This document shows, in pieces, positions 3,131 through 39,341 of a DNA stretch of 39,619 nt (position 1 is the stretch's first letter; each line of letters begins with the position of its first letter). The notes under the pieces were generated by a model. That model made no database searches. It had not been told where the DNA came from and saw only the letters and a list, made by a program, of their open reading frames with translations. Origin of the DNA: a virus; IMG/VR virus record IMGVR_UViG_3300044630_007113, positions 1 through 39,619 of that record, one strand, 5' to 3'. The position numbers and the translations under genes were made by a program.

Positions 3131-3149
3131 AGACCATTATTTAGACCCT

Positions 3150-7688: not shown

Positions 7689-7697
7689 GATATATAA
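7689..7697 (+). promoter_or_regulatory. Late promoter box GATATATAA
   Basis: Ends 4 nt before the ATG at 7702. If transcription starts about 6 nt past the box, the mRNA is leaderless. Confidence 0.7.
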
Positions 7698-7701
7698 GTG
7701 A

Positions 7702-8358: not shown

Positions 8359-8366
8359 ATATATAA
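8358..8366 (+). promoter_or_regulatory. Late promoter box AATATATAA
   Basis: Overlaps the stop codon (TAA) of the preceding gene and ends 4 nt before the ATG at 8371. Confidence 0.7.
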
Positions 8367-8370
8367 GTGA

Positions 8371-9042: not shown

Positions 9043-9077
9043 ATATATACAAAGTGAAATATTTAAAGAAATTTTCC
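9031..9077 (+). repeat. 47-bp cassette-junction repeat, copy 1
   Basis: Spans the last codons (LGF), the stop, the late box, the GTG start and the first tag codons. It is identical to 9663-9709 over 47 bp, with similarity extending further upstream through the tail codons. Confidence 0.85.
9042..9050 (+). promoter_or_regulatory. Late promoter box AATATATAC
   Basis: Starts at the last base of the previous stop codon and ends 3 nt before the GTG start at 9054. Confidence 0.65.
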
Positions 9078-9674: not shown

Positions 9675-9709
9675 ATATATACAAAGTGAAATATTTAAAG
9701 AAATTTTCC
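9663..9709 (+). repeat. 47-bp cassette-junction repeat, copy 2
   Basis: Identical to 9031-9077; joins cassette 3 to the LRR cassette. Confidence 0.85.
9674..9682 (+). promoter_or_regulatory. Late promoter box AATATATAC
   Basis: Starts at the last base of the stop codon and ends 3 nt before the GTG start at 9686. Confidence 0.65.
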
Positions 9710-10858: not shown

Positions 10859-10878
10859 ATTCATAATAAATTATTTAT

Positions 10879-10886
10879 TACATTTG
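10879..10886 (+). promoter_or_regulatory. Host-type -7 promoter box (TACATTTG)
   Basis: Exact TAnnTTTG match ending only 4 nt before the ATG at 10891, implying a leaderless message. It sits in the array where a late box would be expected; the corresponding late box is degraded (AAATTCATA). Confidence 0.5.
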
Positions 10887-10890
10887 GGAC

Positions 10891-11124
10891 ATGAAAGATC
10901 ATTCCATTGCTAGGGCTAGACAAAAATGGAAATCATACGGGATCGAAGGTCAAGGTCCGGTAGAAGATACCCTTGTCATGGATCTTGGCGATGAGCATCT
11001 ACTTAATATTATTAAACATCTAGAAAGACGAGGTCGCATATCCACTCTCCTTGCAATCTATTATACCATGCACGCAGAAATTGCCTGGCGACTGCGTGAT
11101 CATTGGACTACATACTCCGAGTAA
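10891..11124 (+). CDS. Small hypothetical phage protein
   Basis: 77 residues, helical (MDLGDEHLLNIIKHLERRGRISTLLAIYYTMHAEIAWRL), no capsid tag and no C-terminal cassette tail. It appears to be driven by a host-type promoter, unlike its late neighbours, so it is probably an early gene inserted in the array. The D-E-H-L...I-x-x-L-E-R-R pattern is of a kind common in short phage proteins; I cannot assign a function. Confidence 0.65.
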   Translation: MKDHSIARARQKWKSYGIEGQGPVEDTLVMDLGDEHLLNIIKHLERRGRISTLLAIYYTMHAEIAWRLRDHWTTYSE

Positions 11125-11210
11125 ATATTTTTTAATAAATGTGATGATCTAGCGGGAATTCTAATAAAGAATCATTGGGCTCGGAAACGGACTTGGTTTA
11201 AACTCTCAAA

Positions 11211-11219
11211 GATATATAG
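11211..11219 (+). promoter_or_regulatory. Late promoter box GATATATAG
   Basis: 20 nt before the ATG at 11240. A five-codon frame (ATG at 11226, stop overlapping the gene's ATG as ATGA) lies between. Confidence 0.6.
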
Positions 11220-11239
11220 AAACACATGAGATATCTGAG

Positions 11240-11821
11240 ATGAAGAATTATAAACAATTTTTAAACGAGAATATAAACAGGAAAGAGTTAGTTCTGGATC
11301 CAATCCCGATAGAATCTTTTCTTACTAGGTCAGGACTTCCAAATTATTTAGTAGATAACATTTCTAAGTGGTGGCATCAAAATAGAAGTCATATCGAGAT
11401 TTATTTGTTTCCATTTAATACCGATAAACCCATTATGGGGGGTATAATCGGTGAAAATAAAATAGCAGTCAACGAGACCCGTCCCTTACCTCCTCACATT
11501 AGATTATTTTTAGTCTTACACGAAAGCAGACACTGTGACCAATATAACGAAGGTGTATTTGAGAGAGGATACTTTGAAAGTGTTAAGAACGAGAATTTAA
11601 AAGCATTTTTAGGAGCTTATATGTATCTGGAAAAAGATGCAAATGATTTTGCAGTCTCCTCGATGAGGGCTTGTGGTTTTGGTAGAGAAATGGATTTTGA
11701 AGAATCAAGATTAAGAAAAAATGAAGAAGGTGGTGAGATTGTTTATAAAATGATGAGAGAGGATATAGCAAGATATAATTCCGATAACTTTTTTGATTTA
11801 ATAAAAATCCAAATATTATAG
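11240..11821 (+). CDS. Tagged HExxH zinc metallopeptidase-like protein, tail out of frame
   Basis: 193 residues. The tag is MKNYKQFLNEN, very close to the T4 internal-protein tag, with Leu-Asn-Glu (8-10) as the cleavage site. LVLHESRHCDQYNEG contains H94-E95-x-x-H98, and EKDANDFAV (E131) fits the third ligand and following Ala of gluzincin-type peptidases. The protein would thus be a small protease delivered with the DNA. The frame ends at 11821, but the array's C-terminal peptide (AYLGDLGF) is encoded immediately after in the -1 frame (to 11850), so the gene may be frameshifted near the A-run at 11804-11809. Confidence 0.82.
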   Translation: MKNYKQFLNENINRKELVLDPIPIESFLTRSGLPNYLVDNISKWWHQNRSHIEIYLFPFNTDKPIMGGIIGENKIAVNETRPLPPHIRLFLVLHESRHCDQYNEGVFERGYFESVKNENLKAFLGAYMYLEKDANDFAVSSMRACGFGREMDFEESRLRKNEEGGEIVYKMMREDIARYNSDNFFDLIKIQIL

Positions 11822-11850
11822 ATGCATACTTAGGTGATCTAGGATTTTAA
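11806..11850 (+). pseudogene. Out-of-frame remnant of the ADLGDLGF tail
   Basis: Read in the -1 frame relative to the metallopeptidase gene, this segment encodes ...NPNIIDAYLGDLGF and a stop that runs into the next late box, exactly like the in-frame tails at 8358, 9042, 9674 and 10858. This is a single-base indel, a programmed shift or an assembly error. Confidence 0.7.
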
Positions 11851-11858
11851 ATATATAG
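11850..11858 (+). promoter_or_regulatory. Late promoter box AATATATAG
   Basis: Directly follows the out-of-frame tail stop and ends 4 nt before the ATG at 11863. Confidence 0.7.
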
Positions 11859-11862
11859 AACC

Positions 11863-12285
11863 ATGCAAGATAATACTCATACCGAAAAAGAAACATTAAC
11901 GGGATTTGTTCCCAATCACCTCCACCTCCTAGTTAGAGGTCACATTCAGAATCCACCTAGAGAGGAAGAGGTTTTGAATCAATGGTTAAAAGATCTAGTC
12001 GAAAGAGTCCGCATGGTAGTTGTTGCTGGACCCACTTCAGTCTATGTGAATGAACCAGGTAATGAAGGTATCACAGGAACAGTCACCCTCGCTACTTCAC
12101 ATGCAGCTATTCATGTTTGGGATGCCAAGGATCCTGCTTTCTTTCAATTTGATATTTACTCATGTTCTCAATTTTCAGCTGATGAAGTGTTAGATCATTT
12201 CGATCGATTTGGTCTTATTTCCTGTGAATGGATGTACATTGACAGAAACAACGGACTAAAAGTTGTGTTAGAAGGAAAGAGATAA
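11863..12285 (+). CDS. SpeD-like S-adenosylmethionine decarboxylase family protein
   Basis: 140 residues, the usual length of prokaryotic SpeD. The core GITGTVTLATSHAAIHVWD aligns with the autoprocessing region: S79 would become the pyruvoyl group, H84 is five residues on as in SpeD, and C101 (in DIYSCS) is close to the expected catalytic Cys. The residue before S79 is Thr, where canonical enzymes have Glu, so processing or substrate may differ. SpeD makes decarboxylated SAM for spermidine. Some SpeD homologues are known to have changed to ornithine or arginine decarboxylation. No speE is in view. Confidence 0.85.
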   Translation: MQDNTHTEKETLTGFVPNHLHLLVRGHIQNPPREEEVLNQWLKDLVERVRMVVVAGPTSVYVNEPGNEGITGTVTLATSHAAIHVWDAKDPAFFQFDIYSCSQFSADEVLDHFDRFGLISCEWMYIDRNNGLKVVLEGKR

Positions 12286-12295
12286 AAATATAGAT

Positions 12296-12373
12296 ATGAA
12301 AAGAATTCCATTCGCACTTATCTCTATTCTCTTAATAGGATTACTTATCTTGTGGGTAATCCAAACACCATGA
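12296..12373 (+). CDS. Tiny membrane peptide
   Basis: 25 residues: basic start MKR, then one hydrophobic helix (IPFALISILLIGLLILWVI) and QTP. Its stop overlaps the start of the next gene in ATGA, a typical translational coupling. A weak AAATATAG box lies just upstream. Could be a membrane-anchored regulator or only a coupling leader; function unknown. Confidence 0.55.
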   Translation: MKRIPFALISILLIGLLILWVIQTP

Positions 12374-12987
12374 AGAATAATTATAATAGAATATTAATTC
12401 TAACGCATCCTAGAAGTGGAGGATTCAGTCTTTTACATTGGCTGGGAAATGAATTGGGAATAGACTCATATCACGAACCTCTTTTAAAAGGGATAGACTC
12501 ATTTGAATATTCGGACTCTATTTGTAATCCAAACGTGATAGTAAAAGAACAACTGGATAGTATTATAGATCTTAACCTGGATCCAATTAGATTTATTAAC
12601 TCTTTTGATCTAGTGATTTTTCATACTAGGGTTAATATAGAGAGTTGTTCAATTAGCAAAATAATGCAGCTAGAGACCGGCGAATCACACGTTTCCTATA
12701 CACTAGACGCCAAATGGATCTCTTTACATCAGAAGGAAATCCGTAAAGCGGGAGAAGAGCTAATTATCACACAAAAATTACTATTAGATCAAGCTTCTTT
12801 TTGTACTGGGAAAATTATCAGTACTACTTACGAGGGAATCTACGAAACAAAAAAAGATATTTCATTAATTACCGATACATTAGGAATATATGATCCCAAA
12901 TGGTTAAGCGTTATCGATCCAAAAAGAAGACTGCAAAATGGGGACCCAAAATTATCCGAGCCTAAAATAAAACCAAAGTTCATTTGA
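12370..12987 (+). CDS. Sulfotransferase-like P-loop protein
   Basis: 205 residues from the ATG at 12370 (the frame is open 18 nt further up, but the ATGA overlap with the upstream peptide favours this start). The N-terminal RILILTHPRSGGFSLLHWL has the PRSGS-type phosphate loop of PAPS-dependent sulfotransferases after a beta strand, followed by ELGIDSYHEP. Further strands (FDLVIFHTR) fit the fold, but the 3'-phosphate site is not obvious. It may sulfate a sugar; the identity is moderately sure from the N-terminus only. Confidence 0.65.
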   Translation: MKNNYNRILILTHPRSGGFSLLHWLGNELGIDSYHEPLLKGIDSFEYSDSICNPNVIVKEQLDSIIDLNLDPIRFINSFDLVIFHTRVNIESCSISKIMQLETGESHVSYTLDAKWISLHQKEIRKAGEELIITQKLLLDQASFCTGKIISTTYEGIYETKKDISLITDTLGIYDPKWLSVIDPKRRLQNGDPKLSEPKIKPKFI

Positions 12988-13048
12988 TTCTTTGTTGGGA
13001 AAGTGAAATATACAGCCATAAAGTGCTATAATAGATAAATTATCTCCT

Positions 13049-13213
13049 ATGTGGATTTTATTTGGTATTTGTTCCGTGATCTTAGTGCTTGCCTTCCATG
13101 TCTTAGGAGAGGTATCAGATCAAGAGAAACGCATTAATGAATTAGAAGAAAGACTTTCCAAACTTGAGAAAGACGCAGTTAAAATCACATTTGACAATGA
13201 CAGGGTTATTTAG
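13049..13213 (+). CDS. Small membrane-anchored coiled-coil protein
   Basis: 54 residues: N-terminal helix WILFGICSVILVLAFHVLG, then a heptad-like region (QEKRINELEERLSKLEKDAVK). Its end overlaps the next small gene by 17 nt in another frame. The size and layout (membrane anchor plus coiled coil, nested partner) recall spanin or Rz-like pairs, but there is no lipobox in the partner, so this is only a suggestion. Confidence 0.6.
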   Translation: MWILFGICSVILVLAFHVLGEVSDQEKRINELEERLSKLEKDAVKITFDNDRVI

Positions 13214-13298
13214 GAGGGGAGATAGAATCAAGCGATTGATTGTGCTCATGCTATTCATAGGCATGTTGGGAATCTGGATAAAGTATATAAACATTTAA
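13197..13298 (+). CDS. Tiny membrane protein overlapping its neighbour
   Basis: 33 residues: basic N-terminus (MTGLFRRGDRIKR) and one hydrophobic helix (LIVLMLFIGMLGIWI). Starts inside the preceding gene. A TATATAA sequence within its last codons (13284-13290) may be the late box for the cyclophilin gene at 13313. Confidence 0.5.
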   Translation: MTGLFRRGDRIKRLIVLMLFIGMLGIWIKYINI

Positions 13299-13312
13299 AT
13301 AGAAAAAGAAAA

Positions 13313-13744
13313 ATGAGTCAAGTTAAAATCACTACAACTAAAGGCGATATGATCGCAGATCTTTATGATGAGGCAACCCCAGTTACCGTTGCTAACTTTT
13401 TAAAATTAATTAACCAGGGATTCTATAATGGATTGAACTTTCATAGAGTGATTCCGGGATTCATGGCCCAAGGTGGATGTCCAAATAAAAGAGGCGACGG
13501 CGGACCAGGCTATACCATTCCTTGCGAGACCGGCGGGCAGATGCAGGTTCATGATCGTGGGGTATTAAGTATGGCACACGCTGGACGCAATACCGGAGGT
13601 TCCCAGTTCTTTATCTGCTTCAATCGACAAGGAACACAGCATCTAGATCACAATCATACTTGTTTCGGGAAGGTTATAACAGGATTAGATGTATTAGATC
13701 AAATTAAACAGGGTGACGACATAATTTCAATCTCGGCGATTTAG
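13313..13744 (+). CDS. Cyclophilin-type peptidyl-prolyl cis-trans isomerase
   Basis: 143 residues, a minimal cyclophilin. It shows the catalytic FHRVIPGFMAQGG (Arg in FHR), the binding-site segments GGSQFFI and MAHAGRNTGG, and the terminal HLDHNHTCFGKVITGLDVLDQI. No signal peptide, so it is cytoplasmic. It catalyses proline isomerisation during folding and probably assists phage or secreted phage proteins. It has no capsid tag. The last codons run into the late box of the next gene. Confidence 0.95.
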   Translation: MSQVKITTTKGDMIADLYDEATPVTVANFLKLINQGFYNGLNFHRVIPGFMAQGGCPNKRGDGGPGYTIPCETGGQMQVHDRGVLSMAHAGRNTGGSQFFICFNRQGTQHLDHNHTCFGKVITGLDVLDQIKQGDDIISISAI

Positions 13745-13752
13745 ATATATAA
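13744..13752 (+). promoter_or_regulatory. Late promoter box GATATATAA
   Basis: Overlaps the end of the cyclophilin stop codon; 16 nt before the ATG at 13769. Confidence 0.7.
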
Positions 13753-13768
13753 GTGAAATAATAAAAAC

Positions 13769-15052
13769 ATGAAGTATTTAGTAGAATTTAAATCATGGAA
13801 TGATGAAAGTGCAATGAACGAGCAAGAAGATCCTTACTACGTGTGGGGATTCAAAGCAAACGATCAGGACGCTTCTGGAACAAGTAAAGTTGGATTTTCA
13901 TCATTGAAATCCTATAATAATTACAAGGCAGAGGGATATCCATTAGCAAAAGGACTAACCAAAGATATGAGCCTTTTAGACTGGATGAACACCGAAGGAT
14001 TTACAGATTGTGAAGAAAGAGTTTTGAAAATTGTTGGCGACGATCAATCTAAGACAGCTCTTGAGGGGTTTAAAGAAAAATTTCCAGAAAAGTATGCCAT
14101 GTTTATTGTGTATGCAACTCATGACAAGCTTCCGAAGGATTACAAGGGAGAACCAGTGGATAGAAAAGCACCATTAGATCTAGGTAAGAATGTAAAAATA
14201 TATGCTGCTGATTTTTATAATAATCGCGAAACCCCTGGAGCTCCTGGCGAATCAACAGATCCTAAATCTTCTGACACTCCTCCGATATTATACCCAGAGG
14301 TTAAACTAGAAATTCCTCAAGATATTGACACTTCAGATTTCTTTGAGTTTAATAGTTGGACACTTTCGGAGAAATTTAAAACGTGGTTAACTGAAAATGT
14401 GATAAATCCTTCTAAGGAAGCAATCTCTAAATTAAACCCGCCGGACGGCAAACCTAAATCATATCTTAATTCTCTGAAGATTACAACATCTTCTTCTACT
14501 ATTCCAAACGGGGTTTCTCCTGAGGATAAAAAGAAACATACTTTTGCCGAACTCTCTGATCTTAGAGCAGAATCTACTATTAAGTATTTAAAAGAAGAAT
14601 TAGCTAAGATTGGGGTATTAATTGACGGTGACACCAAAATAGAAAAATCGACTAAAGGCACCAATGCAGGTAAAAAATCCACGGTTGCTTATGCATCTCA
14701 GCCTGTTGGCACAGATTTAACTGGTACGTCTGGCGAAGAATGGGATAAAACCGATGCAAATAAACAAGCTCTTAAGAAATATCAGAAAGTTTCTGTAGAA
14801 GCTGGAATAATTTTTAATGACACTAAAAAGGAAGAACCGGTTAAAGGAGCAGAAACTAAACCAGAACCAATTAAGGTAGATCCTAAAAAACCAATAGAGG
14901 TTAAGGAAAAAGCTTTCTTCGTGACTATTACAGCAGGTAAGAAACCTAAATTTAAGATACCTAGACTTAGACTCAATATTGACTGGAACATGTTATTTTA
15001 CAAATTAGAAAATAAAAGAAAATGGGGAAGAATGAGCTGTCCTAAGTTTTAA
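13769..15052 (+). CDS. Tagged protein with OmpA-like domain
   Basis: 427 residues. The N-terminus MKYLVEFKSWNDESAMNEQ is a longer version of the tag; Met-Asn-Glu (16-18) is a possible cut. Residues 20-130 form an unknown domain. The segment FAELSDLRAESTIKYLKEELAKIGV resembles the L-S-x-x-R-A-x-x-V-x-x-Y-L signature of OmpA C-terminal peptidoglycan-binding domains, preceded by a beta strand (LKITTSS) as in that fold. A Lys/Glu/Pro-rich linker follows. It converges with zero spacing on the CAP gene. A packaged wall-binding protein is the working idea. Confidence 0.65.
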   Translation: MKYLVEFKSWNDESAMNEQEDPYYVWGFKANDQDASGTSKVGFSSLKSYNNYKAEGYPLAKGLTKDMSLLDWMNTEGFTDCEERVLKIVGDDQSKTALEGFKEKFPEKYAMFIVYATHDKLPKDYKGEPVDRKAPLDLGKNVKIYAADFYNNRETPGAPGESTDPKSSDTPPILYPEVKLEIPQDIDTSDFFEFNSWTLSEKFKTWLTENVINPSKEAISKLNPPDGKPKSYLNSLKITTSSSTIPNGVSPEDKKKHTFAELSDLRAESTIKYLKEELAKIGVLIDGDTKIEKSTKGTNAGKKSTVAYASQPVGTDLTGTSGEEWDKTDANKQALKKYQKVSVEAGIIFNDTKKEEPVKGAETKPEPIKVDPKKPIEVKEKAFFVTITAGKKPKFKIPRLRLNIDWNMLFYKLENKRKWGRMSCPKF

Positions 15053-15676
15053 TTATTCCTCAAAGACTAAGGTAACGTAGATTTCTTTACCCGTCGAAAC
15101 CGAACTGACCGAAAAATAATTCCAAAGTGGATTGATCAAATTCTTATAATGAGAAGGAGAATCAATCCACTTTTTTATGATCTCACTTGCAAGCATGGTG
15201 TATGTAACTCGATCTGCTTCCCACATGAAATTAAATCCTGGATATTTGGATTTTAAATTTTCATAATTTTCTTTATAAATATTAAGAGGAGCTGGCGTTG
15301 TTTCATGAAACAGATTCTCCCCAAAGTGTCCTCTACCTATAACTAGTCTTATTCTTTGTGTGAAATCTAATGAATCTCTTTCGTGGGAAAAATTACCAGT
15401 CCTTTCCATATATCTTGTTTGTTCCCTTGCCACACTGTCACATCTCTCTGAAATCTTTAATCTATTAAGATTGTTTTTCCTTCTGAATCTATTTAAATCT
15501 GAGATAATAATATCCTCTAGTTTTTTACAATCTATCCTCCACCCAAGTTTATTGTCATAGACTATTCTATTGTCAATAAGGTCTGCTGCTCTTCCAAGAT
15601 CCCCACTAATAATCACTACCTGGGAATTTGCTCTAATCGAGATGACACAGAAAATAATTAATATAAGCCTTTGCAT
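15053..15676 (-). CDS. Secreted CAP/SCP-domain protein
   Basis: 207 residues with a Sec signal peptide (MQRLILIIFCVISIRANSQ). The CAP signatures are visible: LNRFRRKNNLNRLKISERCDSVAREQTRYM, FSHERD, GENLF, IIKKWIDSPSHYKNLINPLW and the final beta strand EIYVTLVFE. Bacterial CAP proteins are exported and poorly understood. It is on the minus strand and would be expressed from the AT-rich region at about 15680-15690 (TATATTTG on that strand). Unlike its neighbours it bears an export signal instead of the capsid tag. Confidence 0.88.
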   Translation of the reverse strand: MQRLILIIFCVISIRANSQVVIISGDLGRAADLIDNRIVYDNKLGWRIDCKKLEDIIISDLNRFRRKNNLNRLKISERCDSVAREQTRYMERTGNFSHERDSLDFTQRIRLVIGRGHFGENLFHETTPAPLNIYKENYENLKSKYPGFNFMWEADRVTYTMLASEIIKKWIDSPSHYKNLINPLWNYFSVSSVSTGKEIYVTLVFEE

Positions 15677-15721
15677 GTATCCAAATATATAAAGATTCTA
15701 CGAAACAAAAAAATGCAACCG

Positions 15722-15730
15722 GATATATAG
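15722..15730 (+). promoter_or_regulatory. Late promoter box GATATATAG
   Basis: Ends 4 nt before the ATG at 15735. Confidence 0.7.
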
Positions 15731-15734
15731 AATC

Positions 15735-16568
15735 ATGAGAAGAATTAAAAATTTTAGCCTTTTTATAAAAGAGGCACAGCAAATACCACTTAGTGATCCG
15801 TCAAAAGATGGTGAGATTTTTGCGGGTGTACTTGCGGCTCACAAAGACGCAAAAGAAGAGCCTAGAGGAAGTAACAAAGGTCCAGAGGTTACCAAATATT
15901 TACAAGCAGTAGGTCTTTCTGGGGGTCTTCCTTGGTGTATGGCTTTTGTCTATTATATTTTCGATGAGGTTTGTAAAAGACTTGGAAAAACAAACGGCAC
16001 AGTTAAAACCGGAGGGTGTCTAAATCATTGGAATCAAGCACCAAGTGATGCTAAAATACCTGTTGATAGAGTAAAGTCAAACCCAAGCTTGATCCGTCCA
16101 GGGCAAATATTTATTATGACCCGCCCAGGAAAAGGATTAGGACACACTGGTATTGTAGTTTCTGTTAACGAGGGTGACAGATCTTTCACCTCAATGGAGG
16201 GAAACACTAACGACCAACTTAGTGGGGAAGGAGATAGAGTAGGTATCAACAAAAGAAAAATAGATGGCACCAACCTGGTTGGATTTATTGATTATTTTAA
16301 AAATAGCAGAACCCCGGAATTTGAAACTGATATCTCTAAGGCAATAACAGGAGAGGCATCAAAACTTTCGCCTTTAACTGGTGATGATGTTTATCCTGAC
16401 GACGAAACTGTTGGGGGTGAGTTAGGAAAAGCACCAGATGATGCAAGTTCTACTCTTATGCAGCAGGCATTATCCAATATAGTTTCTGGTCAAAATGCTA
16501 AAGGCTCAACCACATCAGACATAAAAACCGATGCTGATGCGAAAGAACTTTTGAAAGAGTTAAGATAA
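15735..16568 (+). CDS. Tagged CHAP-type peptidoglycan hydrolase
   Basis: 277 residues. The tag is MRRIKNFSLFIKEAQ, with Ile-Lys-Glu (11-13) before Ala14 as the predicted cut. The NlpC/P60-CHAP-like domain covers about 30-185: catalytic Cys68 in GLPWCMAF, His137 in GLGHTGIV, and a third polar residue in SMEGNTN (155-159). Such domains cleave peptide or amide bonds of the wall. The tag suggests it is packed in the head and delivered with DNA, unlike an ordinary endolysin. The C-terminal about 90 residues are low-complexity and acidic. Confidence 0.87.
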   Translation: MRRIKNFSLFIKEAQQIPLSDPSKDGEIFAGVLAAHKDAKEEPRGSNKGPEVTKYLQAVGLSGGLPWCMAFVYYIFDEVCKRLGKTNGTVKTGGCLNHWNQAPSDAKIPVDRVKSNPSLIRPGQIFIMTRPGKGLGHTGIVVSVNEGDRSFTSMEGNTNDQLSGEGDRVGINKRKIDGTNLVGFIDYFKNSRTPEFETDISKAITGEASKLSPLTGDDVYPDDETVGGELGKAPDDASSTLMQQALSNIVSGQNAKGSTTSDIKTDADAKELLKELR

Positions 16569-31080: not shown

Positions 31081-31118
31081 TTATTATTTTTACTGTGATG
31101 ATTTTCAGAGTTGTATTA

Positions 31119-31150
31119 GATATATAAACTCGAAAAAATCCTCATTCGGT
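31119..31150 (+). promoter_or_regulatory. Late promoter plus conserved leader, copy 1
   Basis: The box GATATATAA (31119-31127), four variable bases, then GAAAAAATCCTCATTC and GT match the segment at 38852-38883. It drives the exported-protein operon. The 31081-31283 intergenic region otherwise holds hairpins. Confidence 0.75.
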
Positions 31151-31173
31151 AAAAAAGCAAACAATTTTTTACC
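31148..31173 (+). other. Leader hairpin GGTAAAAAA/TTTTTTACC
   Basis: Perfect 9-bp stem (31148-31156 with 31165-31173) with an 8-nt loop in the 5' leader of the exported-protein operon. It could stabilise the message or attenuate it. Confidence 0.6.
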
Positions 31174-31258
31174 ACCAAATAGTCTCTCTCTTTGGGAAAC
31201 ACGATCCCCAATAAGAAAGGCTCTTTATTTGAATCCCCTACTTAGGGGGAATGCCGGG

Positions 31259-31283
31259 TTTTTTCCTAATAAAATAGGAAAAA
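31259..31283 (+). promoter_or_regulatory. Hairpin occluding the start region of the exported operon
   Basis: TTTTTTCCTA pairs with TAGGAAAAAA around AATAAA, ending right at the ATG (31284). The AGGA about 8 nt before the ATG is a rare Shine-Dalgarno-like sequence in this genome and lies inside the stem. A shorter CCCCTA/TAGGGG hairpin (31235-31248) lies upstream. Confidence 0.5.
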
Positions 31284-31787
31284 ATGCCAAACCTCTTTAA
31301 ATCTCTCACACTAACTTTAGTGGTTACCTTTTTTGCCCTTGCGTCATTCGCTCAGGGAAAGTCTGTTCTTATTGGGGAAATAAACAATAAGATCATGATA
31401 GGTAATTTAGCAGGATCTAGGCCTTTAACTTTCGGATTTAAAAATCTCCTAGAAGAATATCTCCAAGAAACAAATTTTGACATAGTAGAAGATGAAACCA
31501 AATTTGATTATAAAATCAATATAGATCTTTTATTCTTTGATGTTGAAACAACAAAATCTAGCGTTGCTGTATTCCATAAGAACAACGCCGAAACTGTACT
31601 AAAAATAAAAGCATACCTTTTAGATAACAAAGGGAAGAAAATAAAAGAATGCGTAATAACCGAAAAAGCTTCTGAAATCTCAGTATCAACCCTAATAGTT
31701 GATGAGGGAGGAAAGATGAATCAACAATCGGTTTCCACCGTTATTAAAAAGGTTTGCGGAACAGCAATAAAACAATTACTAAACTAA
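31284..31787 (+). CDS. Exported hypothetical protein, first gene of the surface operon
   Basis: 167 residues with a signal peptide (MPNLFKSLTLTLVVTFFALASFAQ, cut after Gln24). The mature protein is alternating beta/alpha (SVLIGEINNKIMIG..., FDYKINIDLLFFDVETTKS, VLKIKAYLLDNKGKKI) and ends in a helix with one Cys (KKVCGTAIKQLLN). It looks like a periplasmic accessory protein; no family assigned. It is separated from the next gene by one base. It lacks a lipobox. Confidence 0.75.
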   Translation: MPNLFKSLTLTLVVTFFALASFAQGKSVLIGEINNKIMIGNLAGSRPLTFGFKNLLEEYLQETNFDIVEDETKFDYKINIDLLFFDVETTKSSVAVFHKNNAETVLKIKAYLLDNKGKKIKECVITEKASEISVSTLIVDEGGKMNQQSVSTVIKKVCGTAIKQLLN

Positions 31788-31788
31788 A

Positions 31789-33429
31789 ATGAAAAAATTA
31801 TTAACACTCCTGGGAATATTAATATCCCTATCATCATTTGGTCAAATTACAGTATCTCAATCAGTTACACCTGCTCCGCCTTATAAGGTAGGCGATACAT
31901 TAACTGTAAAGTACAACGTAAACAGAGGTACTTCTCTTCCACGCTATTTCTGGCTGAGATATTCTTTTAACAACAAAGCATTGGCAATGGTACCAAACAG
32001 CACAGCATTTACACAGGGTAGTTCAACACAAACGTTTTTTACCGGCTGGAATAATTATGCATTTACTCCTGCTCCAAATGTAGCAGTTACTAATTTATAT
32101 GCGCAATATCAAGCTACACCCTGGGGTTATATCTCAAACAACGATTGGAACGTTGGGCAATTAACAATCCAAAGAGCTGATGCATCAATTAACGGGGACA
32201 TTGCAACGCAAAAATATGTATTAAAGGATCAAAATGCTTATAATGATATACACAAATTGGATTTAGCGTATGCTATTAGTGATTTGTCTGCAAATATTTC
32301 CCCAGTAACGAAGAATTCTACTAATCTATCATTAACAAATGTAGTTGGTAATACTTCCCAATTTAAGGTTAAAGTGTTATTCCCACAAGGATATACCATC
32401 ACCGATCATAATGTTCAGCTGATGAAATTGAAAACTGATGGAACGATCGATTGGGCATTACCGCCAGTTGCACAATTACCATTGGATGCTACCGGAGAAG
32501 CACTATTTACAACGCAGGTTAAAGTTGGTGATTCTGTTGGAGTATTTGTAAGTCCTGCTTCTCAAAAAGCTTGGATGAATAATGTCATTACTGTATCAGA
32601 TGCTTATAAATCATTTTTAGGTCATTCACAAACTGATATTAGTGGTAACTCTAATTTCTTTACTTACCCCAATTTGGAGAAGAAAGTCGGTAATATAACT
32701 AAGAACGATTCAATATTTAATGAATCAGATTCATACTATTCATTCGCTTATGTTATGGGACAAGACGTTTCAGCAAACGCATTTATTCCAACATCAACCG
32801 CAACATCTTGGAGATGGCTTAGCGGTTTGTTAAATCAAAGCTGGTTGGAAGGAAATATTAAAAACAAGGTTACTATTGATACACCGATCAAAGAGGTGTA
32901 TGCAGTGTATGCATGGGCTGGAGACTTAGACTGGTCACATTCATCAGATCCTGCAGAAATTTTAAGTAGAATTAATGCTGGTCAATTTACAAATTCTGTA
33001 AATTCCATTAACGCTAAGGCAACTATGTCAACTCAATCAATGGCTTATAGAACAGAAGCATTAGAAACTGCTAAATTGAGCGTAACATCAACATTAGAAG
33101 GAGGTAAAGTTGTTCTAACAACAAACTTAACAAAAGAAGGTTTAGCAGGATTAGAGGTTATTATGAATTATGATGAATCTAAATTAACTTTAGACAATGT
33201 GATCTTCGATGCTGGATCAACCATGACAAATTTCTCTACACATAAAGATGGTAGATTAACTTTCGGTTCAATCGATCAGATAAAAACTGCTAGAATTAAA
33301 ACTGGAAAACCGTACAAATTAATTTTCACACCGAAGGTTCAATTAACAAATACCGCAGGTTTATTCTACTTTGTTTTGTCTGATGCTGTTGATGGAGCAG
33401 GTAACAAAATAAATCTAATTGTAGAATAG
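31789..33429 (+). CDS. Exported adhesin-like protein with cohesin-like C-terminus
   Basis: 546 residues; signal peptide MKKLLTLLGILISLSSFGQ. Residues 20-150 are Ig/beta-sandwich-like (YKVGDTLTVKYNVN...), with a middle region containing an EF-like loop in a degenerate dockerin setting (NITKNDSIFNESDSYYSF). The C-terminal about 125 residues (LSVTSTLEGGKVVLTTNLT...GLEVIMNYDESKLTLDNV) resemble a cohesin-type beta sandwich. The same middle and C-terminal modules recur in the next gene, so they are paralogues. It is expected in the periplasm or on the cell surface. One base separates it from the next gene. Confidence 0.78.
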   Translation: MKKLLTLLGILISLSSFGQITVSQSVTPAPPYKVGDTLTVKYNVNRGTSLPRYFWLRYSFNNKALAMVPNSTAFTQGSSTQTFFTGWNNYAFTPAPNVAVTNLYAQYQATPWGYISNNDWNVGQLTIQRADASINGDIATQKYVLKDQNAYNDIHKLDLAYAISDLSANISPVTKNSTNLSLTNVVGNTSQFKVKVLFPQGYTITDHNVQLMKLKTDGTIDWALPPVAQLPLDATGEALFTTQVKVGDSVGVFVSPASQKAWMNNVITVSDAYKSFLGHSQTDISGNSNFFTYPNLEKKVGNITKNDSIFNESDSYYSFAYVMGQDVSANAFIPTSTATSWRWLSGLLNQSWLEGNIKNKVTIDTPIKEVYAVYAWAGDLDWSHSSDPAEILSRINAGQFTNSVNSINAKATMSTQSMAYRTEALETAKLSVTSTLEGGKVVLTTNLTKEGLAGLEVIMNYDESKLTLDNVIFDAGSTMTNFSTHKDGRLTFGSIDQIKTARIKTGKPYKLIFTPKVQLTNTAGLFYFVLSDAVDGAGNKINLIVE

Positions 33430-33430
33430 T

Positions 33431-35722
33431 ATGAAGAAATTATTAGTAATATTTTTTTTACTAATTTCATTTTTAGGGTTCGGACAGAGTGTATCTGCTC
33501 CGGACTCTAAATCGTTTTTACAATCAACTAGCGCACAAGATGCTAGTGGTTTTGTTTTAAGCGGATTTTCTTCAGCATCGACTTTACTGGCATCAATCAG
33601 TTTAGTTAATCCACCAACAGGTACAACATTTGTGCTAAACACAACAACGGGTCTAACCGCAGCAAGTGGATTCACATTAGCAGGTAATAAGACTCGTTTA
33701 GTGGTAACAGGAACGATGGCAAGTATCAATACGGCATTAGCATCTCTTAAAGTAAACACAGGTTCAGTAAGAGGTAATGTTGCATTATCGGTAGCAACAA
33801 CAGTCAATCCTGTAGGATATTTCTACAATGGTGTAAACGGACACTTTTATAGACCAATAGCAACTGGTGCAACTTATACAAATGCTAGAACACTAGCATC
33901 ACAACAAACATTCAAAGGACAGCAAGGGTATTTGGTAACAATTACTTCAGCAGATGAAGATGCGTTTATTTTTAATAACGTACCTCAATCAAATATATGG
34001 TTTGCATTAACCGATGAAGCGAGTGAAGCTAGATGGACAATTGATGCGGGGCCTGAAGCTGGAACTTTAATTAAAATAAATAACGGACAACTAAACGGAA
34101 ATATTCCCGGTCAATATAATAACTGGGCACCCGGTGAACCAAACAATAGTGGTAACGAAGATTATGCGGTAACTAAATGGAATGGTTCTCAATGGAATGA
34201 TTTACCAAACCATTTTTCAAATCCTTATGTAGTTGAATTTGGAACTTGGGCTAATCCTGATGATGCAACATTCACAGAATTTTATACCAATTCAGTAACT
34301 CACTCAAACGGGGAAGTTTTAACTGCAAGATTCAATTTTGACTTTGGTGGTAATGTAGATGAAACTAAATTCTCAGCAAAAGCAAATACTTATGTAAACA
34401 ATGTATGGGGTACAACAACTAATATATCAAGATCAATAAGTGGATTGGGTAAAGTTGATATTACAAACGATTTAGATACCGCAAAAATAAGTGGGGGTGG
34501 TGTTAGAGCAACAACAACCACAGGAGGAGTAGAGTGGTGTGTGATATATGATTACGATGCAACAAACCAAAGATATAGAATCGGTATCGACAGTAGAGAA
34601 GTAAACGGAATTTTATCTACCCCATCTTCAATTAGTAGTTTACAACTATTTGATTTATGGAATGGTCCTGTAACATTTAATTCCTATGACCCAAATGGAT
34701 GGACCGAGGTTTATGTTTACACGCCAACGCAATTCAACTTTTCAGGGTCATCTTTCTCATCCTTTATTAGAGAAGGGAATGGATCTTATGGATTAAGAGC
34801 TGAATTTTCATTTACACCTATTACTGCATTTAAACAACACGGAATTGATTTATCATACACCAATCAGACAGATTTAAACTCTTTGTACAATAGCGTCGTG
34901 ACAGTATCTGATGTGTTTATAGCATTTAAAGAATTATCGAGTGGTGGTTTATTTGGGAACGAAAGTGGAAATGAGTTTACCTCTGGTATTCAATTTATGA
35001 ACGCAGATGTAGATGGCAATGGTATATTCAACGAAGCTGACACATATAGGCTATTACAGCACCTAACTGGTGCAAAATCGCTTACTGAATATTCAGTATT
35101 AACTTATCTGATTAAACTTTATAGCAAGCCAGATTATGACGCAATTACTAAATCTAATTGGAATACCAAATTTAACTCAACAAGAAGTTTATTCCCATTT
35201 AGCTTGAATACTGGTACACTTAATAACACTTATAATGTAAATGCAACATGGATCGGAGACGTAAATCTATCTCATTCTGCACAACAAACTGTGGGTAGTG
35301 TTAGTGCTAATAGTGTAAGATCAATGAGCTTAATGACCAATTCAATTCCCACCGAAGTTAATGCATCTATTATGGGTGAAGTTAATGGTGATAAAATTAT
35401 AGTGACAATATCATTAGATCCATTACAGCAAGAAGTGACCGGTACACAATTTCAATTGAATTATGATAACACTAAATTGAAGTTTGAAAAAGTAGATTTC
35501 GTAACAAAAAATAATCCTATGAATTATGGTACCAATAAAGGCAATTTCATAAACTTAGGTTCATTGATCACAAACGGTGATGGTGTGTTGGATAAGACAA
35601 CTGAATATAGGATTACGTTTAACCCAATCGGTAGCTTAACCGATATCTTAGGTTTAACATCTATCTCAACAACGGATGCAGTTAATAAAGACGGCAAGCA
35701 ATTAAAAGTAAAATTAAACTAA
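33431..35722 (+). CDS. Exported C-type-lectin/dockerin/cohesin-like surface protein
   Basis: 763 residues; signal peptide MKKLLVIFFLLISFLGFGQ. Residues 35-125 are one cadherin-like beta repeat. Residues 130-273 are a C-type-lectin-like domain with the calcium/sugar-binding NWAPGEPNN (EPN) and QWND (WND) motifs, of mannose-type pattern. A beta-rich middle follows, then a dockerin-like calcium loop DVDGNGIFNEAD (about 525-536) and a cohesin-like sandwich (about 645-763). It could bind glycans on cells or matrix. Its stop overlaps the next start (TAATG). Confidence 0.85.
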   Translation: MKKLLVIFFLLISFLGFGQSVSAPDSKSFLQSTSAQDASGFVLSGFSSASTLLASISLVNPPTGTTFVLNTTTGLTAASGFTLAGNKTRLVVTGTMASINTALASLKVNTGSVRGNVALSVATTVNPVGYFYNGVNGHFYRPIATGATYTNARTLASQQTFKGQQGYLVTITSADEDAFIFNNVPQSNIWFALTDEASEARWTIDAGPEAGTLIKINNGQLNGNIPGQYNNWAPGEPNNSGNEDYAVTKWNGSQWNDLPNHFSNPYVVEFGTWANPDDATFTEFYTNSVTHSNGEVLTARFNFDFGGNVDETKFSAKANTYVNNVWGTTTNISRSISGLGKVDITNDLDTAKISGGGVRATTTTGGVEWCVIYDYDATNQRYRIGIDSREVNGILSTPSSISSLQLFDLWNGPVTFNSYDPNGWTEVYVYTPTQFNFSGSSFSSFIREGNGSYGLRAEFSFTPITAFKQHGIDLSYTNQTDLNSLYNSVVTVSDVFIAFKELSSGGLFGNESGNEFTSGIQFMNADVDGNGIFNEADTYRLLQHLTGAKSLTEYSVLTYLIKLYSKPDYDAITKSNWNTKFNSTRSLFPFSLNTGTLNNTYNVNATWIGDVNLSHSAQQTVGSVSANSVRSMSLMTNSIPTEVNASIMGEVNGDKIIVTISLDPLQQEVTGTQFQLNYDNTKLKFEKVDFVTKNNPMNYGTNKGNFINLGSLITNGDGVLDKTTEYRITFNPIGSLTDILGLTSISTTDAVNKDGKQLKVKLN

Positions 35723-36615
35723 TGAAAAAACTATTATTGATCATATCGTTAGTTTTAATTGGATTTGTATCAAATGCACAAATACAAACCCCGGATACAT
35801 TACAGCTATCTGCAAAAGAATTATTTGGGGAAAGTGATAATTGGAATGATGTAGGTATATTACAATCCTATGTTAATTTTTCAAAAGACATTCTTTCATC
35901 ATCAAATCTTTCGGTTGGTATTATCGGAAAGCAGGTATCAACTACTCTTAATTTGGGATATCACAAATCATCTTTGAACGGGAAGTGGGGGCATACCTTT
36001 GCCTCATCAATAAACCCTATATGGAAATATTATGGTGTAGGTTACGGTATTAGTAGAAACACAGAAAAAAGAACTACCACGCTACAATCGTTTTACTCAA
36101 CCGATTTTGATTTCCAAAAAGATATTACATTGTCATTTATTGATGTATTCAGAACAAAAAAGTGGGGAACGTTTGGTTATAGTTTAACTGCATCTAAATC
36201 ATTTTGGGGAAGTTATCAAGGTGAGTGGGAAGGAAAATATACGGTAGATGCAGATGGTAATTTTTTAGATTTAATATACCCGCAAATGCCAGCATCAAGT
36301 GAAATTACTTACAGATGTATGGCGATGTACACATATACATTCGAGGGAAAAAGATTAAACATATCTCCCCAAATATTTGCAATGAGCGACGTGTATAAAG
36401 TTTTTAAAGATGGAACTAAATCTGATTTATCGTATTTAGATGATTTTAATATGGACTTATACTATGGTACATCTATCGATTGGAAAATAACTAAAAGGTT
36501 TGTTTTAAATACAAATATCAGATATAACACAACTTGGGATAAACTAAGTGAATCTGTTGGATATAAAAAGAGTAACCCAATAATGTTTATGATAGGAACT
36601 AATTTTAAATTTTAA
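35722..36615 (+). CDS. Outer-membrane beta-barrel protein
   Basis: 297 residues; signal peptide MKKLLLIISLVLIGFVSNAQ. The mature chain alternates amphipathic strands and ends in aromatic F (MFMIGTNFKF), as outer-membrane barrels do. Strand-like segments with aromatic girdles recur every about 10-12 residues. It resembles the C-terminal domain of the protein at 37372 (both have a ...ISPQ-F... strand). Start and stop codons overlap its neighbours, so its production is coupled to the lectin protein and the lipoprotein. Confidence 0.82.
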   Translation: MKKLLLIISLVLIGFVSNAQIQTPDTLQLSAKELFGESDNWNDVGILQSYVNFSKDILSSSNLSVGIIGKQVSTTLNLGYHKSSLNGKWGHTFASSINPIWKYYGVGYGISRNTEKRTTTLQSFYSTDFDFQKDITLSFIDVFRTKKWGTFGYSLTASKSFWGSYQGEWEGKYTVDADGNFLDLIYPQMPASSEITYRCMAMYTYTFEGKRLNISPQIFAMSDVYKVFKDGTKSDLSYLDDFNMDLYYGTSIDWKITKRFVLNTNIRYNTTWDKLSESVGYKKSNPIMFMIGTNFKF

Positions 36616-36959
36616 TGAAAAAAATAATATTAATATCGTTGGTTCTACTAGTTGGATGCACAAAGATGGAAATAGAACCTGTAACACCTCCAACAGATCA
36701 AAACATATTTAGTGTTAGTGAGAGTGTAGTTACTGACGGACAAATTATTCAATTTGACCTACCCTCTAACGGTATTTATACACTAACGCTGATTGATAAA
36801 GAAACCAATCAGGCAATAAGCAGGGAAAAATTTACTGGGAAGTCTGGTGTAAATATTAAAAAGATCTATACTAATTCTCTAAAATCACAAGTAATGTATT
36901 TATTGTTAGAAGATTTAGAAAAGAAAGAAATCAAAAAAACAATAATCAGAATAAAATAA
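36615..36959 (+). CDS. Lipoprotein with type-IX-sorting-domain-like fold
   Basis: 114 residues. Lipobox LLVGC with Cys15 as the lipid-bearing residue. The mature part is a small beta-sandwich (VTDGQIIQFDLPSNGIYTLTLIDKETNQAISREKF...) ending KKTIIRIK, which resembles the C-terminal sorting domain of type IX secretion cargo (N-x-x-Y-x-L-x-L-x-D ... K-x-I-I/V-x-x). Because this is the whole mature protein, it may mimic or bind the host type IX machinery; this is an inference. TAATG overlap with the barrel gene. Confidence 0.75.
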   Translation: MKKIILISLVLLVGCTKMEIEPVTPPTDQNIFSVSESVVTDGQIIQFDLPSNGIYTLTLIDKETNQAISREKFTGKSGVNIKKIYTNSLKSQVMYLLLEDLEKKEIKKTIIRIK

Positions 36960-36971
36960 AAAAAATAAAAA

Positions 36972-37343
36972 ATGAAAAAGCTATTAATCCTATCTGCATG
37001 CTTCGCAATCTTATCTGGCTGTTCAAAAGATGACATTTTGCCTATTACGGATCAGGCTGTTAAACAAGAACTTAAAATAGAAAATAGTGTAGGCATCAAA
37101 TTAGAAACATCGTTTGTTTCTAAAGAAGTTTCTATGAACGTAAAGCTAGAAAATGCAGGCATTGTTACAATTAAAATAATGGACATTTCTAACAGAGTGG
37201 TATCTAAAGAACAAGTCAATGTAAAAATTGGCGACAACATATTAAAGGTTTACACCTCTGCTCTACCTTCTTCAGCTTATAGAATAGGTCTTTATGATTC
37301 TAATAATAACCTATTAGGAATTACGGATTTTAATAAACTGTAA
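36972..37343 (+). CDS. Surface-type lipoprotein, sorting-domain-like fold
   Basis: 123 residues. Lipobox LSGC (Cys17) followed by S-K-D-D, close to the lipoprotein export signal that sends Bacteroidota lipoproteins to the cell surface. The rest (VSMNVKLENAGIVTIKIMDISNRVVSKEQV...ALPSSAYRIGLYD) is a beta-sandwich similar in pattern to the preceding lipoprotein, so the two are probably paralogues. It lies 12 bp downstream in the same operon. Confidence 0.8.
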   Translation: MKKLLILSACFAILSGCSKDDILPITDQAVKQELKIENSVGIKLETSFVSKEVSMNVKLENAGIVTIKIMDISNRVVSKEQVNVKIGDNILKVYTSALPSSAYRIGLYDSNNNLLGITDFNKL

Positions 37344-37371
37344 TCAAGAATAAACTGTGTATGAATTGTAG

Positions 37372-38847
37372 ATGAAGAAATTATTAATGCTCCTTTTATT
37401 GGCCTTATCTTTTAATGTAGATGCACAAACATTTACCCAGACATATGTTGATAAATGTTCCGGAGAGATTAAGGTTGTTATTTCTACACCAATGCCAAAC
37501 GGAATGGTAATGATTGCATTCTACAATCAGATGAAATCATTCACTAATGCACAGGTTAACAACGGTACGGTTCAAGCTTGGTTAGATGCAGTCTATAAGG
37601 ATTATGGTACAAGACCGTGTCCAGTAACTACTGTTGTCACCCAGACTGTTCAGCAGACTGTTGCACAAGCAGCTTCTGCTGCTGCTTCTTCTGCAGCATC
37701 TGCTGCAGCTAGTAGTGCTGCATCGTCCGCTGCAAGTAGTTCAGCATCATCTGCTGCATCATCATCAGCAAGTAGTGCTGCAAGCTCTTCAGCATCTTCA
37801 TCTGCTTCTGCATCAGCAGGATCCTCTGCGGGATCTTCAGCTTCTTCTGGGGGATCCAGTTCTAGTGGATCATCTTCTAGTAGTGGATCTTCATCTTCAT
37901 CTTCTTCTAGCGGGGAAAGTAAAAGCAGTGGATCATCCAGCGAACAAAAATCTGAAACTAAATCAGAGTCTAAATCAGAATCTAAATCAGAGTCCAAGAC
38001 GGAAGAGAAGAAAGAGGAATCTAAATCAGAGACCAAAGAGGAAAAAAAAGAAGAATCCAAATCAGAAGAAAAGAAAGAAGAAAGCAAAAAGGAGGAGGAA
38101 AAGAAAAAAGAAGAAGAGAAAAAGAAAGAGGAGGAGGAAAAGAAAAAAGAAGAAGAGAAAAAGAAAGAGGAGGAGAAAAAGAAAAAACAATCTGTTAGCA
38201 ATCCCACTTTAGTCGCATCAGATTTAGCTGTAACCCAAGGAAATGACGGTAGATATTCCGCTATGATTTCAACAGGAATAAGCAAATCCTCTATGACTGG
38301 GACAGAAAGTTGGGGATTAACATCCATGATATGGACAACATTCGACCAATTTGCATTAAACGGAGGATACACTAAAATGAACTTTGAAAAGGGTAAGTTA
38401 AACAACATAAATTCATATTCCATGACTGTTGCTTACCTACAGGGAAATATCATGATTATGCAAGGCTATACGTTCATTAAACCAGATCCTAAGATAGGAA
38501 CATATGGTTACAATATTGGGGTTGTTAGCTTATTACTAAAAGACGGCAATCGATATACTTATTCTGCTTCTGTATCCTCTATAGGATTCTGGACAAGGGT
38601 TTATCAGATAAACAAGAAAGTAGCTATCTCTCCACAGGTTTTTATAACAAGCTCTCCTATATCATGGAATCCAAACACAAATCAAACATTGGTTAATAGA
38701 CAGTTTGGATTTATGAGTGGATTTTCATATGACTACAAATTAACAGGCAGATTCGGTCTTAATTTAAATTATAGATTTTCCGGATCAACCCAGCCTGGAA
38801 CAAAAATTTTAAATAATTTCATGATTGGATCCAGAATCATGTTGTAA
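37372..38847 (+). CDS. Exported protein: Ser/Ala linker, Lys/Glu stalk, outer-membrane barrel
   Basis: 491 residues; signal peptide MKKLLMLLLLALSFNVDAQ. Residues 20-95 form a small N-terminal domain with two cysteines (C29, C83). About 99-185 is almost pure Ser/Ala/Gly, and about 186-273 is Lys/Glu/Ser repeats that should form a long charged helix or coil. The last about 215 residues are amphipathic beta strands ending in SRIML, an outer-membrane barrel related to that at 35722. It is the last gene of the operon, 28 bp after the lipoprotein. Confidence 0.82.
   Translation: MKKLLMLLLLALSFNVDAQTFTQTYVDKCSGEIKVVISTPMPNGMVMIAFYNQMKSFTNAQVNNGTVQAWLDAVYKDYGTRPCPVTTVVTQTVQQTVAQAASAAASSAASAAASSAASSAASSSASSAASSSASSAASSSASSSASASAGSSAGSSASSGGSSSSGSSSSSGSSSSSSSSGESKSSGSSSEQKSETKSESKSESKSESKTEEKKEESKSETKEEKKEESKSEEKKEESKKEEEKKKEEEKKKEEEEKKKEEEKKKEEEKKKKQSVSNPTLVASDLAVTQGNDGRYSAMISTGISKSSMTGTESWGLTSMIWTTFDQFALNGGYTKMNFEKGKLNNINSYSMTVAYLQGNIMIMQGYTFIKPDPKIGTYGYNIGVVSLLLKDGNRYTYSASVSSIGFWTRVYQINKKVAISPQVFITSSPISWNPNTNQTLVNRQFGFMSGFSYDYKLTGRFGLNLNYRFSGSTQPGTKILNNFMIGSRIML
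37666..38190 (+). repeat. Low-complexity coding repeats
   Basis: Within the gene at 37372: short GCA/TCA/AGT repeats (Ser/Ala) up to about 37930, then repeated AAATCAGAG and GAGGAAAAGAAAAAAGAA units (Lys/Glu). Such tracts are prone to length change. Two long open frames on other frames here (37634-38212 and, reversed, 37650-38423) are by-products of the bias. Confidence 0.85.
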
Positions 38848-38851
38848 AAAA

Positions 38852-38883
38852 GATATATAATCTTGAAAAAATCCTCATTCAGT
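38852..38883 (+). promoter_or_regulatory. Late promoter plus conserved leader, copy 2
   Basis: GATATATAA, four variable bases, then GAAAAAATCCTCATTC and GT: the same module as 31119-31150. It precedes the membrane-protein gene at 39018 with a leader of about 150 nt. Confidence 0.75.
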
Positions 38884-39017
38884 TTGAAAGTAGAAATACC
38901 TTCATAAACACTTTTCAACGCCTTCAAAGATGTAGTACATCGGAAGGTTCTATGTAAAAGTAAATACCAGATCCGGGGATTTTTTCTAAGCCATTCAACA
39001 CGAATATAAAAAATAAA

Positions 39018-39341
39018 ATGAGCGAAGAAACACAAAACGAAGGAACCTGGTCAGGTTTAAAAAAGACAATCGTAGGCGTACTAGGTACAGTCGTAACAGC
39101 AGGAGGAGTATATCTAACTACTCTATTCGGTGGCGGAGATAAAGAAGCAGCACCAGCCCCTGCAGCAGCACCAGTAATTAACATCACAAACTCCAACCAG
39201 CAGCAACAATCCGCAGGTAAAACTGTAATTATTCAAGGTGGGGCTAATGGCGGATCAGCAACTCCAAAGCCTGTTGAGCCTGCACCTAAGCCTAAGAAAA
39301 AAGAAGGTGACGAGTTTAAAGAAGAAGCACCTAAGTGGTAA
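39018..39341 (+). CDS. Small membrane protein with Ala/Pro-rich tail
   Basis: 107 residues. N-terminal polar stretch, one transmembrane segment (about residues 17-38, TIVGVLGTVVTAGGVYLTTLF), then Ala/Pro, Asn/Gln and Lys/Pro-rich disordered sequence ending PKW. Its long leader is shared with the exported operon, so it may be a highly expressed late protein. Start chosen at the ATG after AAAAAATAAA. Function unknown. Confidence 0.72.
   Translation: MSEETQNEGTWSGLKKTIVGVLGTVVTAGGVYLTTLFGGGDKEAAPAPAAAPVINITNSNQQQQSAGKTVIIQGGANGGSATPKPVEPAPKPKKKEGDEFKEEAPKW

Follow-up and report, generated by a model that had tools for sequence, protein, structure and literature searches.

Seven consecutive plus-strand open reading frames (ORFs), named g1 to g7 in order, occupy positions 31284-38847 of a 39.6-kb virus record in IMG/VR (IMGVR_UViG_3300044630_007113; this whole stretch of 39,619 nucleotides is referred to as the window), and the question that they raise is what a virus might construct on its host from a set of products that are all predicted to be exported. 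Judged from the sequences, the answer is probably a phage-built surface-adhesin apparatus, a lectin/cohesin scaffold on the infected Bacteroidota cell. The genes are spaced by 1, 1, -1, -1, 12, and 28 nt, and all seven ORFs are present where a preliminary description of this DNA had placed a seven-gene operon, mostly with overlaps or 1-base gaps. When one simple signal-peptide rule (not SignalP) was applied uniformly to 44 window genes, every operon gene was called as exported, five with signal peptidase I (SPI) and two with signal peptidase II (SPII) signals, and none of the other genes was. The rule was passed by 95% of the homologues of g2, 100% of those of g3, 87% for g4, 84% for g5, 98% for g6, and 93% for g7, against a background of 4% among 923 other ORFs in related loci. 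The exception is g1, for which 15% of homologues passed, the majority having a longer N-terminus and a hydrophobic membrane helix (alignment A1); the earlier claim that all seven proteins carry signal peptides thus holds for the window and for homologues of g2 to g7 and gives way to membrane anchoring in most relatives of g1. The ratio of nonsynonymous to synonymous substitution rates (omega) was 0.04-0.29 across the operon genes wherever the synonymous rate was computable, which marks them as genuine genes subject to purifying selection. The predicted signals conserved in homologues, together with barrels and lipoboxes, bear out the proposal of a phage-encoded, exported outer-membrane/surface complex, and the pairs of which it was said to consist are recognizable: g2 and g3 by their shared modules, g4 and g7 as barrels related to each other, and g5 and g6 as lipoproteins.

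The adhesive part of the apparatus would be formed by g2 and g3. In the window, g3 exceeds the Pfam cut-offs for Lectin_C (E, 1.4e-6) and Cohesin (2.3e-5), and within its family Lectin_C was found in 19 of 24 members, Cohesin in 11, Dockerin in 9 (E <= 0.1; best, 0.0013), and LCCL in 7; cohesin was also present in 18 of 22 related records. Both sugar-site motifs, EPN and WND, were seen in 63 of 68 g3 homologues, and in a comparison of the window with L069 the lectin (omega, 0.11) and dockerin (0.06) regions were both constrained, the central region (0.39) evolving fastest. The g2 protein is homologous to the C-terminal half of g3 (hhalign of A6 versus A7: 99.7%, E of 4e-26). An additional mid-protein segment is present in the longer g3 proteins of L048, L047, and L006 (about 860-885 aa), and these long forms, with LCCL in 7/24 family members, suggest a set of exchangeable binding domains.

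Two barrels and two lipoproteins accompany this pair. An AlphaFold2 model of g4 is a closed 12-stranded barrel (predicted local distance difference test [pLDDT] score, 61) whose best VIA matches are autotransporter translocators (NalP; Z, 20.2), FapF having a Z of 16.2; as a comparison of a model, these scores show the type of barrel, not its family. FapF, which serves functional amyloid secretion in Pseudomonas, resembles the window proteins in its 12 strands and in the long periplasmic linker that precedes the barrel in g7, but no sequence similarity was found and other 12-stranded barrels score equally well or better. By hhalign (E, 1.3e-10), g4 has a homologue in the C-terminal part of g7; the low-complexity linker of g7, 188 residues long, would reach across about 28 nm as a helix. 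The g5 and g6 proteins form one paralogous family, in which Por_Secre_tail was matched in 7 of 18 and DUF3244 in 6 of 18 members at an E of <= 0.1; matches of their profiles to PDB sequences were confined to the signal-peptide region. An acidic K/Q..D/E start follows the cysteine in 84 of 108 g5/g6 proteins and resembles the surface-lipoprotein signal of Bacteroidota.

The module is widespread among viruses. A scan with g4 recovered 80 contigs of viral origin, from 7 to 335 kb in length, in which BLAST homologues of g3, g5, g6, and g8, the gene that follows the operon, were present in 73-74 (g8 in 73) and those of g1 and g2 in 65, with the order g1-g2-g3-g4-g5-g6-g8 kept across contigs; the gene-order search that had been recommended returned the same synteny in dozens of viral contigs. 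The juxtaposition of g6 and g7 is confined to the window and its three nearest relatives, g7 usually being placed a few kilobases downstream elsewhere. The T4 gp23 capsid gene was found in 7 and a contractile tail sheath in 7 of the 12 large contigs searched, identifying large T4-related phages. Their hosts are likely to be Bacteroidota, since a TonB-receptor gene on 13 contigs is 63-71% identical to genes of Aquirufa antheringensis and a Cytophagaceae genome. This TonB-dependent receptor, at L081:16506-20179 and similar loci, is followed by a lipoprotein gene in 8 loci and is likely host derived.

Searches of cultivated phages gave matches for c3, a conserved downstream gene discussed below, and for g3; tblastn searches of the same phages with g1, g2, g4, and g7 gave nothing. 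Flavobacterium phage vB_FspM_immuto (NC_055915; host, Flavobacterium sp. LMO8) carries a compact form of the module, gp013 to gp019, at 10527 to 16409. Its gp013 is the lectin protein (3e-15), gp014 lies between this and the cohesin protein gp015, and gp016, gp017, gp018, and gp019 are homologues of g8, c3, the N-terminal domain of g7, and g1, respectively. The immuto module differs from that of the window in its compactness, in having no match to g4, and in the true type IX secretion system (T9SS) tail on its cohesin protein, several of its parts being annotated as hypothetical: gp015 contains both a cohesin domain (5.9e-9) and a C-terminal Por_Secre_tail (2.4e-8, over the cut-off). Por_Secre_tail also exceeds the cut-off in three more contigs, in proteins of ~634-640 aa at the module position; for L164 and L166 among these, it lies within a cohesin-type protein at the position of g3. 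The fused tails of immuto and the three contigs tie the module to host type IX export in those phages, and the g5 and g6 lipoproteins of the window may take the place of such a fused sorting tail.

These findings bear on two ways in which the operon could be something other than a surface structure of an infected cell. That it is host DNA wrongly joined to a phage contig, as the bacterial look of its domains might intimate, is hardly credible in view of the dozens of syntenic contigs, the gp23 and sheath genes that they carry, and the cultivated isolate, and g4 and c3 were unmatched in 395 Bacteroidota genomes, in a search that had no positive control; g4 was likewise not confirmed in any of 84,980 species genomes scanned. 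A single poor match with internal stops was the only g1 relative recovered from the same 395 genomes, again without a positive control. Contamination, which the preliminary description had named as grounds for abandoning its proposal, is excluded by the synteny and by the gp23 and tail sheath genes, and this candidate was rejected. It is also very improbable that the products are virion fibers or decorations whose predicted signal peptides go unused. Phage fibers, too, bear lectin or adhesin modules, and g7 has a low-complexity PHROG match to a tail-fiber family; signal peptides are nonetheless retained across divergent homologues that feature lipoboxes, barrels, and T9SS tails, the immuto module sits among or after replication genes, and the nearest gp23 is tens of kilobases away in the contigs examined. 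In agreement with the preliminary description, there is no sign of a virion function, given the conserved signals and the replication-gene context of immuto.

The statement that the complex is complete is not supported. Conserved partners lie downstream, partly past the end of the window: four further families comprise g8 (a predicted inner-membrane protein), c4 (two transmembrane [TM] helices), c3 (240 aa; SPI), and c7, which is present in fewer contigs. A scan of IMG/VR with c3 confirmed 505 stretches, and among 81 loci (the best 80 of these stretches plus immuto) a g7 homologue stands alongside c3 in 78. Two compact loci, L164 and L203, fit g1, a cohesin protein, g8, c3, and g7 into about 6 kb; these loci and the conserved partners indicate that the operon belongs to a larger system. 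The g1 family matches PF03923 at an E of <= 0.01 in 26 of 37 homologues (best, 7e-6); against the curated cut-off of 25 bits, the g1 of L037 reached 22.9 bits and the g1 of the window had no match. For c3, whose gene is outside the window, the top 16 Foldseek matches of a model (pLDDT, 60) in the PDB were all CsgG (best E, 1.9e-5), and VIA aligned the model to CsgG with a Z of 11.9 (171 residues, 5.0 Å), PelC and FlgT coming next. No meaningful match was found for the g1 or c3 profile among PDB sequences, no significant one for either against E. coli CsgG by sequence hhalign, and no relation past 22 columns between g1 and c3.

The CsgG fold in the model of c3, together with the curli genes reported in one marine Bacteroidetes T4-like genome (PMC7198788), could be read as a curli-like (type VIII) secretion system in which c3 is the CsgG pore and the small proteins are fiber subunits. 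We accord this little probability. PF03783 (CsgG) was matched in 0 of 12 contigs at an E of <= 1, an E. coli control being positive, and no Pfam match to CsgF or curlin was obtained among the operon and neighboring proteins scanned. By the simple rule, the signal of c3 is SPI, not SPII, in 66 of 68 cases, that is, not of the lipid type, and the segment aligned to the first membrane hairpin of CsgG has 4-7 charges per 20 residues versus 4 per 30 in CsgG itself. This charge-rich segment leads us to view c3 as a CsgG-fold protein of the periplasm for which a pore function is hypothetical. Full membership of the curli class was rejected, given the unmatched CsgG Pfam model and the lack of CsgF and curlin matches in the scanned proteins, as were explanations that rely on one gene.

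The same downstream genes invite a reading in terms of lysis or outer membrane disruption, with g8, c4, and small TM proteins acting as holin- or spanin-like parts and the CsgG-fold protein and barrels opening the outer membrane. These small proteins are co-conserved and adjacent, g8 has the same leader as the operon (see below), some relatives have the endolysin gene c25 close to g1, and a pore-timing role was proposed for the CsgG of the methylophage Melnitz (PMC9004378). We consider this reading improbable: lysis has no use for lectin, cohesin, or sorting tails, the spanin-type PHROG matches are limited to the signal-peptide region, and the annotated holin-endolysin pair of immuto, at 43.7-44.8 kb, is about 28 kb from its module. 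This distance makes lysis timing the less likely member of the list of functions first put forward (superinfection exclusion, aggregation, matrix binding, and lysis timing), which is narrowed to that extent and is otherwise not settled.

Taken as a surface-adhesin apparatus, the module might operate as follows. Sec would export all seven proteins, and g2 and g3 would leave the cell via the host type IX system or phage channels, to be held by cohesin-dockerin contacts and by the surface lipoproteins g5 and g6, a fused T9SS tail serving as the anchor in relatives. A base spanning the envelope would consist of the g1, g8, and c3 proteins together with the long g7 linker, and the lectin would bind either glycans of neighboring cells or particles, leading to adhesion or aggregation, or those of the host's own surface, with masking of phage receptors. 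Several points tell against this interpretation. The Dockerin_1 match in the g3 of the window (E, 0.023) is below the cut-off, and the sorting-tail similarity of g5 and g6 is likewise subthreshold; neither g2 nor g3 of the window has a C-terminal T9SS sorting domain by Pfam that would define how these proteins cross the outer membrane; the g4 and c3 models are of low confidence (pLDDT, 60-61); and adhesion, aggregation, and receptor masking, as benefits to the phage, are not distinguished by sequence. Strict superinfection exclusion, in which the complex would block adsorption or DNA entry by receptor masking or modification and adhesion would be irrelevant, draws on the surface location, a lectin that could bind the host's own glycans, and the fast evolution of the central g3 region. 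The same benefit has been proposed for pelagiphage curli (PMC9599517), and the window and its relatives also encode sugar-modifying genes; those of the window, at 4403-29761, specify FkbM methyltransferases, a glycosyltransferase, nucleotide-sugar epimerases, and a Nol-like carbamoyltransferase, with sugar or surface modification as their common theme. Known exclusion proteins are usually small and act as one or two, and an envelope-spanning lectin-cohesin scaffold would be elaborate for that purpose alone; we hold strict exclusion to be rather unlikely.

The surface-adhesin interpretation could be widened, tentatively, to a new class of viral system: a trans-envelope machine dedicated to presenting a scaffold of cohesin, dockerin, and lectin on the infected Bacteroidota cell through interchangeable anchors (a fused T9SS tail or stand-alone sorting-tail lipoproteins), with one structured leader RNA controlling both scaffold and base. 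If the apparatus exists, many large aquatic phages would rebuild the exterior of the infected cell with a multipart adhesin, which would matter in lakes and seas for superinfection, for aggregation, and for attachment to particles, and the pelagiphage curli findings would fall within a wider class. With immuto and its Flavobacterium host, the idea can be put to a direct test, and the fused sorting tail versus the stand-alone, tail-like lipoprotein provides a natural comparison for the functions of T9SS tails and surface lipoproteins.

Table 1. Coordinates of the operon, the adjacent gene g8, and the promoter-like and leader elements in the window
Feature	Position	Strand	Description
Promoter-like motif ATATATAA	31120..31127	+	Upstream of the operon
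g1-operon leader	31132..31265	+	Closing stem of 10 bp, GAAAAAATCC (31132-31141) with GGGTTTTTTC (31256-31265)
g1	31284..31787	+	Periplasmic, 167 aa; SPI in the window, membrane anchor in most relatives; resembles Lipoprotein_16/YajG
g2	31789..33429	+	546-aa exported protein; dockerin-like and cohesin-like C-terminal modules in common with g3
g3	33431..35722	+	Exported, 763 aa; C-type lectin plus dockerin-like and cohesin modules
g4	35722..36615	+	297-aa predicted outer-membrane barrel; 12 strands in model
g5	36615..36959	+	Lipoprotein, lipobox LVGC; sorting-tail-like domain
g6	36972..37343	+	Lipoprotein, DUF3244/Por_Secre_tail-like (DUF3244, 0.0029); acidic CSKDD after Cys
g7	37372..38847	+	Exported N-domain (2 Cys), followed by a linker of 188 aa (Ala/Ser, then Lys/Glu) and a C-terminal barrel
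Second ATATATAA copy	38853..38860	+	40-nt repeat in common with 31118-31157, 85% identity
Second (g8) leader	38865..38986	+	Same closing stem, 38865-38874 with 38977-38986
g8	39018..39341	+	107 aa; one predicted TM helix; Pro/Lys-rich tail; 60% identical to immuto gp016

The statement that no described phage system has this composition stands for the material searched, in which the composition is unmatched, and is tempered by close functional precedents (PMC9599517 and PMC7468147). Pelagiphages carry type VIII (curli) operons (PMC7029224) and, according to one study, full curli systems for which superinfection defense or sibling capture has been proposed (PMC9599517), and Melnitz encodes CsgG and CsgF with a proposed role in lysis (PMC9004378). 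The module resembles these in being a multigene surface or secretion module of aquatic phages with a CsgG-fold protein and with similar proposed benefits, but this protein is too divergent for the Pfam model, CsgF and curlin were not detected in the proteins scanned, and in place of curli parts there are cohesin, dockerin-like, and C-type lectin proteins, 12-stranded barrels, sorting-tail lipoproteins, and Bacteroidota hosts. Cryophage encodes T9SS cargo with type A sorting domains, the cargo varying between relatives (PMC7468147). Both it and the phages described here supply genes with sorting domains for the host T9SS; its enzymes and PA14 protein are variable genes, whereas ours is a conserved multicomponent module with a fused tail in some relatives only. 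The window module thus shares the idea of the curli and T9SS-cargo phages, not their parts. Scaffolds of the cellulosome type have in common with it a cohesin, a dockerin-like EF-hand segment, and a carbohydrate-binding tip, but here the dockerin is weak by profile, there are no enzymes, and anchoring is by lipoprotein or T9SS tail. Nothing relevant on phage cohesins or dockerins was found in the literature searched (Creative Commons-licensed papers), and the words lectin, curli, lipoprotein, and outer membrane are absent from an account of large aquatic Bacteroidota phages (PMC12619734).

The operon and g8 are each preceded by a promoter-like motif and a structured leader. There are 18 copies of the heptamer ATATATA on the plus strand of the window, every one intergenic, and two on the minus strand. 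Numerous plus-strand genes, of every kind, have it upstream, mostly 11-28 nt from the start; at g1 and g8 the distance is 164-165 nt, with the leader in between. Intergenic ATATATA(A/G) near gene starts is probably a phage promoter that yields very short leaders. In seven relatives, the 60 nt before the gp23 ORF were checked and contained no ATATATA. The designation of the operon as late is not upheld: the motif stands before genes of all kinds and was not seen before gp23 in these relatives, and the immuto module follows replication genes.

The fold of the g1 leader RNA had a z score of -5.03, none of 200 shuffled sequences being as stable, and a stem of 9-10 bp between GAAAAAATCC and a distal partner is possible in all 11 leaders examined. 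The promoter-plus-leader motif occurred nine times in IMG/VR, on each occasion ahead of a g1 or g8 operon; a scan with the mis-specified form AATATATAA gave no match, and no Rfam family matched the leaders. The multibranch fold has little covariation support, with 5 compensated pairs and a positive covariation energy, and the closing stem alone is claimed. On sequence grounds, the leaders are candidates for an undescribed cis-regulatory RNA.

Three other features of the window were noted. A CAP-domain (CRISP-like) protein, for which no signal peptide was called, is encoded on the minus strand at 15053-15676; the element CGGGGTGCCCCC is repeated five times with irregular spacing at 2745-3138; and a row of related genes with near-identical junctions at 7690-12285, with ten 63-nt repeats at 9919-10600, is likely the product of tandem gene duplication.

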